From: Naganishia liquefaciens | Lineage: Eukaryota > Basidiomycota > Tremellomycetes > Filobasidiales > Filobasidiaceae | DNA length: 64,000 nt | Assembly: GCA_013423385.1 (NCBI GenBank) | Contig: BLZA01000011.1 | Location: forward strand, 247,174-311,173 | Direction of reading: 5' to 3' | In this document: positions 1,336 through 6,057 of the stretch, one piece after another | Layout: every line of letters starts with the position of its first letter | Position numbering within the stretch: the first letter of the stretch is position 1 | The notes under the pieces: model-generated | Databases searched by the model: none | What the model was told of the DNA's origin: nothing | The model's input: the letters and a program-made list of their open reading frames with translations, nothing else | Translations under genes and position numbers: made by a program

Positions 1336-4300
1336 TCACCCTACACGGTTGCACGCCGCCTGTAAAACACCCGCAACTTTGATAAAGTCGTCCACGTCGT
1401 TCCAAACCTGAGCGGAAAAGCGGGCCATCCATTTTTTGTTATGACAGAACTAAGGTCAAAACCCAACAGTCAGCCTTATGCCACTTCAGAAGTTGGATCT
1501 CAAGTGTACTGACAACTGCGGCGAAAACCTTTGCTTTGAACATCTCTTCCAGTAGGAAATCGTATTGCCTTGCCATCTCCTTCTTCCCTTCAGGCGTATT
1601 TTCTGCAAACGACACCGCAAGGGGGAGCTCAACCGTGACCTTCACAGAGTCAGCCAGGATATGTATGAAGCCTCTCCAACTCACCATGTTGGCTGTAAGC
1701 TCTCCATCGGCCGTATCCACGACATTGGTTTTCAGGAACTCCGCCACCTTCCGGCCTCCAGTAACAGCTAGATCATGACAGTACTTGCTGATGCGCTCTT
1801 CCCCACCAAGGAATCTTCGGAACTCGAGAGCTGGAGAGGTGTCAGCATTGGCAACAAGCATATCATTGAGTACAGCTCACCGGCCGAAACCGACAACATT
1901 GGCGCCATGTCTTGCGTGCCAACCCAATCCCACTGAAAATAGTTGGGGTCAAGCGCATATACAAGGGGAAAGAAGTATGCTAACCTGTTTCGCGAAGACC
2001 CATTCCCCGGTAGCAGGATACTTGGCACTTTCGTAATAGTGTGACGTCGGGAGAGTCGATCGAATCAAATGCTGTCGACTGTATAGGGAAACGTAATTTG
2101 CACGAGCATGAAGCACTTACGAAGGCTTCAAATTCAAGTTCCAGGACTTACTTTTTCGCCACATAGAAAAGGGCACATCCACGGTGGCTACAAGCGACGT
2201 TAGTCAACGGCATGTAGCTTGACTTAGAGGATCCTGCATACCTCATCAGCCATTTGTGGCAATTCTTCAGCCCGGAGACACATACGCCATTAGTTTACGG
2301 CACGGTGACTCTGGAAAATAGGCCACATACCGAAAGCCAAAAATCGGGCTGAGACTGCTTCAAGTCAACAGGCAATTGGCCTAGGTGATGAGCCGCATCG
2401 ACGAGACTCAAGACATCATACTCTTTGCACAGGTCCACAATTCGTTCCCAAGGCATGATGACACTATCGCGGAAATTACGTCAGACAAGCAGCCATGTCT
2501 TCTTATGAAAAAGCTTACCCTGGAAGACTGACAATAGAGTCCACCACTACCATCCTCACCCTCTGCGCCCTTGCACCAGCACCGCCATTGTATTCTTTCA
2601 GCACCGATTCCGTCTTGCGAACGATCTCGTCGTGAGTCTCGGGAAAGGCGAGCGGGATCTCATGGTATGTGACGCCTTGGTATTTATCGCAGACGAATTT
2701 TCTGTATATGATCGAGATCAGCATATCCATTTGTGGCATTGCGTCTGTTAGAAACGCACAAGGTTTGCTTGACAGCGGCATAAGTGGTGCTGTCTGGAAG
2801 ATTGTGTCAGCCTCATGGATGCCCTTGTGAGGGAGAAGGGGGCAAAGACGACTTACAACCGACGATGACATCCCCTTCTTGCCAATCAATGTTCCACATT
2901 ACGGTATTCGCTGCAACGCTCGCATTTGCCACCTGCCATGGCTAAGTCAGTCGATCTCTTCAGGAGAATGATCGAGGAAAATGTCACTCACCATGACGCA
3001 ATCGTCCACTTCGGCATTGACCAGCCGCGCCAGCTGCGCCCGCACATCGTTCATGAGCGGAAGGTATGTTTTGCGCATGAAAAGATCCGGACATTTCTCG
3101 CATTCGTCCGAAATGGTGTGCATGGCGGCAATGACGGGTACGGGTGGTGAACCATACGATCCTGTCAGGTTAGAGGATGGCTTAGGAGAGTGCACTTGAC
3201 TTTGTAAAGGTCTTACCGTGGTTGAGATTGATGTCTGAAGGGTAAGAGCGGTGAGACGGTACATGAAATGCAGAACAGCGGATACTCACAATCCGGATCA
3301 AACTTCCAGTATTTGCGCAAACCCTTTCCAAACTCTGGCCACCTATTTTCGCTCGCTGTTTCCGCTTGATCAGGGAAAGTCCGTCCGCCGAGCGCACGAT
3401 GTCTGTCAACATCTGCATACTCTGATTCGTCTCGTCCCTGTGGCGTGTCATTGAAATTGGAAACGGGGAGGCCGGTCCATCGGTGAGATTTGTCCGTAAG
3501 GAACGCTTGAAAGCTTTGGAAGAGAATCATAAATCGGTAAGCGCTCGACAAGAATGACAATCACGATGAAGTACTGCGCGAGTACAAGACTTACTCCCAC
3601 ACTTGCGCGTCGAGCGCTGTGACCCCCGCATCGGTCGTATCCTTCCAGCAATAACACCACGCCTCCGTCCTCTCGAACCCTTCTTCGTGCGCATCGATGC
3701 TCTGCTGAGCGTTTGTTGGGGAAATGTAGGCTCGCGTGGTGGGCGTTGTGAAATCTATGGACAGATTCGCGAGTGACTGGGCCGGGGTGAGGGTGAAGAT
3801 GGAGAGCTGAGTTCGAGTATACTCCTAAAACAGATGATCAGTATGAGTATCCAGTAGGTAAGAATGGGGATGAACCTACGTCGCCTTCAAAGACATCGAG
3901 CGCGCGAACGTCGGTTTGAGTGAGACCAGAGACGTATGTTCCCCTGACACTCGATTCTTCTTCACTCAATTCCCTGAGGCATCAGGTAAGCATCAGGCGC
4001 ATGGCATTACTTCATGATATCAGGATGACACACCTTCCGAGCAATCGCTTCGATGCTTCGACGGGTAAGATCCCGGGATAGTCAGCCCCCTTGACGCAGT
4101 GTCGGACATAACCCTGTGAAGTGCATTAAGAATCTGCTGTTATATGACAGCCGTGGGGTAACATACGGGCAGTATAGCATCCCGGAATTTCAGAGCATGA
4201 CCTTTGTGACCGAGGACTCTGGTCAAGATCTGCGGGACCATGAGTGTTCCAAAGAAGAAGACTGGAATGCAAGCGGTTCAGCGGGGAGAGGGTGCCGGGA

Positions 4301-4359
4301 AGACGGATCTTACAATTGAAGGTCTCCGCATCCTGTTTGGAAGCAACGGGTATTGTCAT
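1336..4359 (-). CDS. AIG2-like / aminotransferase class V fusion protein
   Basis: Exons join into one frame. The N-terminal third is an AIG2-like (gamma-glutamylcyclotransferase fold) domain: FFFGTLMVPQILTRVLGH, GYVRHCVKGADYPGIL, VRGTYVSGLTQTDVRALDV and FEGDEYTRTQL. A linker of about 40 residues follows in the same exon, then a complete PLP enzyme of aminotransferase class V: FGKGLRKYWKFDPDY, INLNHGSYGSPPVPV, VDAAHHLGQLPVDL and the PLP lysine in NCHKWLMSHRGCALFYV, then GGEERISKYCHDLAV; it ends WNDVDDFIKVAGVLQAACN. The enzyme half resembles isopenicillin-N-epimerase-like proteins and EGT2, the C-S lyase of ergothioneine synthesis; I cannot separate these by eye. AIG2-like proteins act on or near gamma-glutamyl compounds, so the fusion may join thiol or gamma-glutamyl steps, but that is inference. 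The start MTIPVASKQDAETFN is followed at once by an intron. It diverges from TAP42, with 262 bp between starts. Confidence 0.85.
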
Positions 4360-4621: not shown

Positions 4622-6057
4622 ATGTCTTCCACCAACTCCCTGACGCTCCCCGCACTTCTCTCCCAGACGCTCACCTCTCTCCTCCCCATCTTCGATGACA
4701 CCCTCTCCACCTCCCTGCCACAAGCCCAGAGCCTCCTCCGCACGTCGCTCGCGGATCTGGGGCTCGCGAGGCGGATGATCGATGCGCTCGGCATCTTTTC
4801 GGATAATGAATCGATGGAAGATGTCGGGGATGGGGAAATGGTGTATATGTGTGTAGACTGGATTGTCGGAGAGGTGCAAGGGAGGCTGAACGGGGAGGGA
4901 CTGAAGGAGCGAATACAGATACTAGAGAGGAGTCAGGTACATGTATTCCCGTCATCATGATCTCAAAGTCGCTAAATCTCTGTTGCAGGAAGCCTACGAG
5001 GCTTTTCTATGGCTGCTCGAGACGTATGAATTCCCGTTGCAAGACGGTCAGACGTATGGCGGCGCGACGACATCGATCCCACAGGATCCCGCTGGACGGC
5101 GGGAAGCCAAAATCAAGCAGTTCAAGATGGAAAAGGCGCTCAAGGAGAAAGTCTCGGTAAATCTCATCACTTTGTCTGAAGACATTTAAGCTAACATCAT
5201 ACATAGGCAGCGACCGGTGTCTCAATAATCTCCTCCGCCTTTCCCGCCATCCTCGCGCTCATAAACCCCTCGTCCGCGACACCTACATCCGTCAACCCAG
5301 AATCCACCCTGCCTCAACGCGAAGCCACGATTGCGCTCCTCTCCCTCCTCCTCACACAGTCACACACCGCCCTCGCCTCCATCGCACAAGAGCTTTCTCT
5401 GCTTCGAAGCGCGAGCATGAGTGCGCATATCGAGGCGGACGAGCGGGAGCAACTAAAGCGGGAAAGGCGTGAGGCGCAAAGAAAGCAGGAGGGAGAGCGA
5501 AGTGGGCTGAAAGAGGATGAGATGTGGCGATTGGATGCGCCGGTACGGTTTGGGAGAGGCAGGGGCGGCAAAGTGGCCGAGTTGATCGACGACCGGGGCA
5601 AGGTCGGTCTCCTTTTCCTTGACCTGGATGTTCAGGCTGACTAAATCGTGCTATTTGACAGCCAATGCAACCGTTCACAATCCTCCCTTCAACCGGACTC
5701 CAAAACTTGTCGGATCGCGCGCGCCTGCAGTCCGAGGTGTTCAGAAGCTCGCATCGTTTACCGACGATGACGATCGACGAGTACCTAGAAGAGGAGCGAC
5801 AGCGTGGAAACATTATCACTGGTGGAGGGTTCGTTCTAGAGATTTAGACATCACTGTTTCATTACTGACTGTCTGTGTACAGACCGCAGCAAGATAGTCA
5901 GTTGACGGAGTCTGAACAGCTTGCACTGGATGCGGAAGACGACGGGACGCTTGCGGGCGAGAGCAAGGCAGAACAGAAACGGCTAAAGGACGAAAAGTGG
6001 GCGAGGTATACAGATACGCATAGAAAAGGTGAAGGAAACACGCTGAACCGAGGGTGA
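4622..6057 (+). CDS. TAP42: TAP42-like PP2A regulatory protein
   Basis: Five exons encode a TAP42/alpha4 (IGBP1) family protein. Recognisable parts are the helical N-terminal half (LLPIFDDTLSTSLPQAQSLL, then an exon beginning EAYEAFLWLLETYEFPLQ), a charged middle (MEKALKEKVS), the LLLTQSHTALASIAQELSLL helix, the PMQPFTILP segment and the typical end DEKWARYTDTHRKGEGNTLN before RG-stop. The family binds type 2A phosphatase catalytic subunits in the cytoplasm and links them to TOR signalling. The start is the first ATG in a good context after a stop-containing leader. It converges on RPN7 with 116 bp between the stop codons. Intron sizes are about 40-50 nt. I am confident of the family because of the C-terminal motif. 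Confidence 0.92.

Follow-up and report, generated by a model that had tools for sequence, protein, structure and literature searches.

EGT2 cleaves hercynylcysteine sulfoxide in the ergothioneine pathway, and enzymes of the GGCT fold release 5-oxoproline from gamma-glutamyl compounds. In the stretch of DNA analysed here, a 64,000-nucleotide window from the genome of Naganishia liquefaciens (19.4 Mb in 28 contigs; Tremellomycetes, Filobasidiales by taxonomy), a single minus-strand gene (coding sequence 1336-4359, ATG 4359-4357, TGA 1338-1336) joins an N-terminal AIG2/GGACT domain to a C-terminal EGT2-type lyase dependent on pyridoxal phosphate (PLP). The C-terminal part is like EGT2 of Neurospora crassa (structures 5uts, 5v12 and 5v1x) in its fold, its PLP lysine and its equivalents of Tyr134, Arg438, Arg75, Ser196 and Thr307, whereas it has Tyr for Phe48, His for Gln224 and Trp for Phe304, and the window protein adds an N-terminal part of about 225 residues that N. 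crassa EGT2 lacks. That part is in turn like GGACT and the AIG2-like proteins (PF06094; plant structures 2jqv and 2g0q; GGACT 3juc) in its family profile, its (Y/F)GTL motif and its catalytic Glu plus Tyr motif, but it is fused to a PLP enzyme. A precedent for deglutamylation ahead of C-S cleavage can be found in gliotoxin synthesis, where the gamma-glutamyl cyclotransferase GliK takes part in fungal sulfur chemistry and the C-S lyase GliI acts later; GliK is a separate protein with a glutathione conjugate as its substrate. BtrG is a further precedent. The order of steps that we propose is also that of the mycobacterial enzymes EgtC and EgtE, gamma-glutamate being removed before C-S cleavage (PMC11089744, PMC10805701); unlike EgtC, which is described as an amidohydrolase of the N-terminal nucleophile (Ntn) type that removes glutamate, the window domain is of GGACT type and would release 5-oxoproline, and two proteins serve in bacteria where one would serve here. 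Fungi appear to lack a deglutamylating enzyme for ergothioneine according to PMC5066259, and the fused N-terminal domain is a candidate for it. Each of the two domains is known already, and the joined form is already present in public annotation; the fused homolog P0012 is annotated there as hercynylcysteine S-oxide lyase. Our literature search, which covered titles and the starts of abstracts among the matches listed (20 of 242 in one case, 10 of 679 in another) with most subscription papers out of reach, showed neither an AIG2/EGT2 fusion nor a choline kinase inside EGT1.

The fusion is confirmed at the level of the gene model as one gene. The original prediction held that a single frame, with good splice sites on both sides, runs from the last AIG2 exon into the PLP enzyme, and this is borne out by the splice model: every intron between its 19 exons is GT..AG, exon 6 is free of stops in this frame, and the frame yields 657 aa followed by TGA. 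The spliced product is letter-for-letter that of the deposited NliqN6_1666 (P0001) of N. liquefaciens, which is a prediction too, such that the match amounts to agreement between models and not to proof of a transcript. Both peptides that had been quoted for the two sides of the junction sit in exon 6, in one frame and with no stop; the exon has a second open frame, but it is the first that the fused relatives share (of the 37, 21 were aligned). Pfam places GGACT/AIG2 (PF06094) at residues 16-134 with 40.2 bits (curated cut-off 22.8) and Aminotran_5 at 298-582 with 66.5 bits (curated cut-off 21.5). Since both domains exceed their curated cut-offs and the same order recurs in 37 of 83 homologs, the fusion lies far beyond chance. 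NCBIfam matches for four fused proteins all remained under the curated cut-offs. Among 20 relatives, identity to the window protein is 28-67% over the AIG2 part and 41-74% over the EGT2 part, compared with 0-53% for the linker over at most 17 residues. An AlphaFold2 model, for which 21 of the 37 fused sequences served as input, reached a mean predicted local distance difference test score (pLDDT) of 83.3 and a predicted template modelling (TM) score of 0.63, with pLDDT below 50 in the linker stretch 223-238.

It is extremely unlikely that the fusion is an artefact in which a wrong gene model or assembly has merged two adjacent genes. What could be cited for such an error is P0084 of N. onofrii, a 186-aa protein annotated as AIG2 only, together with the fact that read-through of intron 5 (3514-3594) meets a stop directly after VWE, so that a transcript keeping this intron would encode the AIG2 part alone. 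The P0084 model ends at this same VWE and its N-terminus is not AIG2-like, and for both reasons we take it as a faulty gene model. Against an artefact stand the domain order shared by the 37 homologs, the protein pieces P0086 and P0087, which span the junction, and the placement of Met in the window protein at positions 1, 23 and then 276. As residues 24 to 275 contain no Met, an EGT2 translated on its own from an internal start codon would be missing the conserved NLNHGSYG; in the columns F186 to F243, Met is absent in 18 of the 37 fused proteins and present in the other 19. On the strength of the splice model, the deposited protein and the fused homologs, we reject a split into two genes as well as faulty splicing. 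Separate genes in close relatives, which would have spoken for such a split, were not clearly seen: N. albida, the closest among the relatives whose models are complete (70% identity), is fused, and P0084 is taken for a faulty model as stated above.

The C-terminal half is very probably EGT2, the C-S lyase of ergothioneine synthesis. The best match in a PDB search was N. crassa EGT2 (5uts) over residues 242-656 (E 2.9e-75, 256.9 bits), followed by LolT (E 1.3e-59, 205.2 bits). Foldseek on the predicted model likewise ranked EGT2 structures first (TM score 0.87 by target length); VIA-align on the same model left LolT and EGT2 tied, and the fold therefore does not separate the two. For residue mapping, the PLP lysine of N. 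crassa EGT2 served as anchor, which we take to be number 247, in keeping with 5v12 being labelled Y134F. PMC10805701 is the source of the substrate and cofactor residues themselves, which it names for the N. crassa enzyme. The PLP lysine and EGT2 substrate residues are present as K465, Y349, R292, R630 and S414. The equivalents of Tyr134 (Y349), Ser196 (S414), Thr307 (T518) and Arg438 (R630) are kept in 37/37 fused proteins, those of Arg75 (R292) and Lys247 (K465) in 36/37, with R replacing the lysine in one. The three differences from the N. crassa enzyme, Y265 for Phe48, H442 for Gln224 and W515 for Phe304, are each the same in all 37 and occur in 32, 41 and 19 of 44 unfused homologs, respectively. 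On the hercynyl side, where N. crassa EGT2 has Phe48, His276 and Phe304, the window protein has Y265, H494 and W515. In LolT, the letters opposite R292, H494, Y265 and H262 are E, F, C and A; we assume that the Arg75 and His276 positions define LolT, and the window protein is without LolT's E and F there. A search of the whole genome in six frames, exon by exon, with both fused and unfused queries and considering the best candidates only, found no other convincing EGT2-like locus, the next-best candidate being C11:535496 (E 0.079). It is the sum of sequence, residues, fold, the EGT1 gene in the same genome and the failure to find another such locus that supports the identification. That the PLP domain is instead a relative of LolT, or some other C-S lyase or cyclase, is very unlikely in light of the higher EGT2 score, the distinct LolT letters and the presence of EGT1 with no second EGT2 found.

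The N-terminal half is probably an active gamma-glutamyl cyclotransferase of the AIG2/GGACT type, a view that stems from its conserved catalytic residues. As a single sequence, residues 8-119 match the plant AIG2-like protein 2jqv in a PDB search (E 1.4e-4), and a profile of eight such domains does so at E 1.1e-14. The GGACT site consists of Tyr7, Gly8, Thr9, Leu10, Ile50, Glu82, Tyr88, Tyr115 and Tyr143 (PMC2954230), Glu82 being the acid/base (PMC7022552). These were matched to F19-G20-T21-L22, E103, Y107 and Y163, with Ile50 and Tyr143 not placed, in a mapping that relies on motifs and the plant AIG2 alignment, not on superposition. The putative catalytic E103 is kept in 21/21 fused proteins of a smaller alignment and in 36/37 overall (one gap), Y107 in 37/37 and Y163 in 36/37; the YGTL motif reads FGTL here, and the Tyr7 position holds Tyr in 33/37. 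In the AlphaFold2 model, ten-residue blocks from 11 to 190 have pLDDT values of 70-94. Foldseek and VIA-align yielded no structural match for this domain, their lists being filled by the PLP domain. No class II amidotransferase domain of the Ntn type, as in EgtC, is present in the window protein, for which Pfam at E<=0.001 gives GGACT, Aminotran_5 and a sub-cut-off Aminotran_1_2 only, and the ChaC profile (PF04752) is absent as well. An AIG2 query of the genome found the window gene only; the PF06094 profile search missed even this gene, probably because of its introns, and the absence of a second AIG2 protein is therefore not established. There is a separate ChaC-family locus in the genome, on C7.

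When examining the distribution of the fusion, it is evident that the architecture, for which a search across Tremellomycetes had been suggested, runs through this class and beyond. Of 83 homologs (E<=0.001), 37 have an AIG2 part followed by an EGT2 part as here, and they are assigned by source name to 20 Tremellomycetes, 16 Microbotryomycetes and one Agaricomycete (Ceratobasidium sp. AG-I); class was checked against the taxonomy for six of the sources. The search scored 7994 candidates sharing most words, and weaker unfused copies may have been missed. Both Pfam labels appear in 35 of the 37; in P0020 and P0021 the GGACT label is missing, as is the opening strand of the domain, but the remainder aligns. 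The GGACT label is absent in the other 46, of which 44 were also aligned and none fills the AIG2 columns. No Tremellomycete or Microbotryomycete name occurs among these 46, and the sole row against a general lack of unfused Tremellomycetes is P0046, a 406-aa protein with no AIG2 part and a start that is not EGT2-like, which falls inside the Tremellomycete clade and is taken here as a truncated model. All nine Rhodotorula and Sporobolomyces homologs are fused (S. salmonicolor itself is not in the set), and the fused gene is also found in Cryptococcus neoformans (P0016). In a tree of the EGT2 part, built by a quick method from 81 homologs (all but P0057 and P0083) with support from the Shimodaira-Hasegawa-like approximate likelihood ratio test only, the Microbotryomycete fusions form one clade (support 100), as do the Tremellomycete fusions with P0046 inside (support 99); the Ceratobasidium fusion lies in an Agaricomycete clade (support 99) whose other members are unfused. 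Such a tree would fit one old fusion followed by losses as well as several fusions. A search for standalone relatives of the AIG2 part gave four matches among 406 candidates (P0084, P0085, P0086 and P0087). Of these, P0085 (281 aa, JGI) has PSFGHG near its end, in a segment resembling the beginning of EGT2, and may be either an AIG2 protein in its own right or a fusion whose model was cut short. Also among the EGT2-related proteins is P0057 of the scallop Argopecten irradians, with 806 aa and two class V aminotransferase stretches.

Based upon these features, we propose that the gene encodes an ergothioneine enzyme with two domains, conserved among basidiomycetes and mostly in yeasts, in which the N-terminal domain would strip a gamma-glutamyl group beside the lyase, a reading to which we give about an even chance. 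EGT1 would sometimes take gamma-glutamylcysteine instead of cysteine and thereby produce gamma-glutamyl-hercynylcysteine sulfoxide. The N-terminal domain would presumably act close to the lyase on cysteine compounds that bear a gamma-glutamyl group, releasing this group as 5-oxoproline; its best-fitting substrate would be gamma-glutamyl-hercynylcysteine sulfoxide, which would thus be rescued for EGT2, and the EGT2 domain would then break hercynylcysteine sulfoxide into ergothioneine, pyruvate and ammonia with the aid of PLP. The net effect would be an EgtC step performed by an unrelated fold. That the substrate is EgtC-like in this way is suggested by analogy and is possible, if doubtful. More tentative again is a gamma-glutamyl branch of the pathway in basidiomycete yeasts, in which EGT1 at least partly accepts gamma-glutamylcysteine and the fused cyclotransferase deglutamylates before C-S cleavage. 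Rescue of a gamma-glutamylated product that arises only now and then would require no change in EGT1, whereas a main pathway would.

The EGT1 gene of the source genome lies on C13 and encodes methyltransferase, DinB and FGE-sulfatase domains. In a comparison confined to the best 120 of 822 EGT1 matches, EGT1 is named for 8 of the 9 other fusion-bearing Tremellomycete genera or groups (Naematelia, Tremella, Kwoniella, Vanrija, Cryptococcus, Kockovaella, Cryptotrichosporon and Cutaneotrichosporon); the remaining one is Tremellales sp. Uapishka_1, for which P0110 carries a name cut off after 'Tremellales'. On the Microbotryomycete side, RtEGT1 is annotated in Rhodotorula toruloides, where RtEGT1 and RtEGT2 have been overexpressed for ergothioneine (PMC11089744), and ergothioneine makers include Rhodotorula mucilaginosa and Sporobolomyces salmonicolor (PMC11993508).

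Several observations weigh against the proposed deglutamylation. Fungal EGT1 is reported to use cysteine (PMC11089744, PMC5066259, PMC11993508, PMC10903977), in which case no gamma-glutamyl intermediate is expected, although one review holds a sentence stating the opposite for N. crassa EGT1. EGT1 reads RNFYQ here where MthEgtB, which prefers gamma-glutamylcysteine, reads RNWDHP, and the Asp of that motif presumably contacts the substrate; the cysteine-preferring CthEgtB has RNFFP at the same motif. The preferences of these two enzymes are those given in PMC10903977. The 25 Tremellomycete EGT1s, among which P0090 and P0098 were placed by our own judgement, comprise 19 with RNWYQ, 3 with RNFYQ and 3 with no motif. 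The other 95 of the 120, mostly Agaricomycetes, comprise 58 with RNWYQ, 9 lacking the motif and the rest with six other Asp-free forms, such that Asp occupies the motif position in 0 of the 86 that bear it. With the same motifs and no Asp, the fusion-bearing lineages do not differ in their EGT1; the enzyme of this genome looks like the ordinary fungal form, and motif comparison gave no sign of gamma-glutamylcysteine use. Furthermore, no Microbotryomycete EGT1 was among the best 120 of 822 matches, and co-occurrence in that group comes from the literature only. EGT2 works unfused in other fungi, and the N-terminal domain is therefore not needed for the lyase. His276 (H494 here) is His in only 22/37 fused and 24/44 unfused proteins, and both Naganishia proteins carry Phe where GGACT has Tyr7. 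The original interpretation of the two domains thus holds in part: a single gene unites an AIG2/GGACT domain and a class V enzyme of EGT2 type, and both have kept their catalytic residues, but its suggestion that they act on consecutive steps is unproven, given an EGT1 of ordinary form.

These points lend some room to other roles for the AIG2 domain. One possibility, somewhat unlikely in our estimation, is that it frees cysteine from gamma-glutamylcysteine or related peptides as the sulfur donor of EGT1, so that ergothioneine output would be coupled to the supply of cysteine or the turnover of glutathione, with no intermediate shared between the domains. The reported use of cysteine by fungal EGT1 and the departure of the present EGT1 motif from that of MthEgtB agree with this, as does a rise in ergothioneine reported in A. 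fumigatus, which implies that the two pools talk to each other. Yet cysteine is consumed by EGT1, while the fusion partner is EGT2, the next enzyme; ChaC enzymes are said to act on glutathione (PMC7022552), and with a ChaC-family locus on C7, general glutathione turnover need not rely on the AIG2 domain. Less likely still, the domain could have substrates that have nothing to do with ergothioneine, such as gamma-glutamylamines or further small gamma-glutamyl compounds, and the fusion would serve stability, dosage or location. Fusions kept as widely as this one usually reflect a shared pathway, and its retention in two subphyla therefore counts, as weak evidence, against an unrelated substrate. 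Nevertheless, Pfam places the domain in GGACT, human GGACT acts on gamma-glutamylamines (PMC7022552), and the linker, unconserved and of low confidence in the model, gives no sign of tight coupling. A catalytically dead domain with a binding or scaffold role is quite unlikely: the replacement of the YGTL Tyr by Phe in both Naganishia proteins would suit it, but among the fused proteins E103, Y107, Y163 and the Tyr itself are kept at the high frequencies given above.

Features of the fusion gene and the basis of their assignment (positions in the window).
Feature	Position	Strand	Basis
Exons 1-10	4359-4314, 4261-4167, 4113-4034, 3973-3880, 3824-3595, 3513-3290, 3234-3217, 3161-2992, 2932-2857, 2793-2760	minus	
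Exons 11-19	2701-2519, 2463-2331, 2264-2242, 2187-2152, 2078-1985, 1932-1881, 1830-1685, 1639-1514, 1449-1336	minus	
AIG2/GGACT part, residues 1-224, exons 1-6	3387..4359	minus	Pfam PF06094 and 2jqv profile match
Linker, residues 225-241	3336..3386	minus	poor conservation, low model confidence
EGT2 (PLP-dependent C-S lyase) part, residues 242-657	1339..3335	minus	5uts match and Foldseek
Junction exon 6 (AIG2 end, linker, EGT2 start), 224 bp, stop-free in frame	3290..3513	minus	splice model
E103 codon, putative catalytic glutamate, FEGDEY motif	3886..3888	minus	motif match to GGACT Glu82
Y349 codon, equivalent of N. crassa EGT2 Tyr134	2780..2782	minus	alignment mapping
K465 codon, PLP lysine, NCHKWL	2253..2255	minus	alignment mapping to K247
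R630 codon, equivalent of N. crassa EGT2 Arg438, substrate site	1420..1422	minus	alignment mapping; role from PMC10805701

Upstream of the fusion gene lies a divergent plus-strand neighbor, a TAP42-like gene at 4622-5641 (PF04177, first piece 56.6 bits), with about 260 bp separating the two starts. Within the window's first 6 kb, no pathway gene was seen next to the fusion.

The EGT1 of the source genome (L007:283-5614, minus strand, G000:C13; 1653 aa by splice model) has an unusual feature of its own, as a choline/ethanolamine kinase is nested within its histidine methyltransferase domain in one uninterrupted frame of 937 aa. The nested kinase matches PF01633 at E 3.1e-65 over profile positions 2-288 of 300 and has HNDTQYGN and DFEY motifs; located at C13:667392-668492, it is the only PF01633 match found genome-wide, where an intron-split gene could escape. 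The same nested order occurs in N. cerealis P0088 and N. vaughanmartiniae P0089, as well as in P0090, and is absent in the other 24 of 27 EGT1s compared. Seven Tremellomycete EGT1s (P0092, P0093, P0095, P0108, P0111, P0112 and P0120) have a variable stretch of 59-141 residues, as cut, at the kinase site, and none of these stretches resembles the inserted kinase significantly (best E 0.096). In the 1125-aa EGT1 of Rhizoctonia solani (P0091), part of the EgtB region matches twice, which reflects either a duplication or a faulty model, and the EGT1s P0089 and P0155 carry extra Pfam labels (PF01212 and PF01529, respectively), possibly from joined neighboring genes.

The finding of an AIG2-type domain on the sole ergothioneine lyase detected in this genome, in a fusion retained across two subphyla of Basidiomycota, makes the statement that fungi lack a deglutamylating enzyme testable with one protein and one substrate. 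Should RtEGT2 (RHTO_04309) of Rhodotorula toruloides be of the fused form, the fusion could also be relevant to making ergothioneine in that yeast. If true, the gamma-glutamyl branch would give fungi the deglutamylation reportedly absent from them, by an evolutionary path separate from that of bacterial EgtC.

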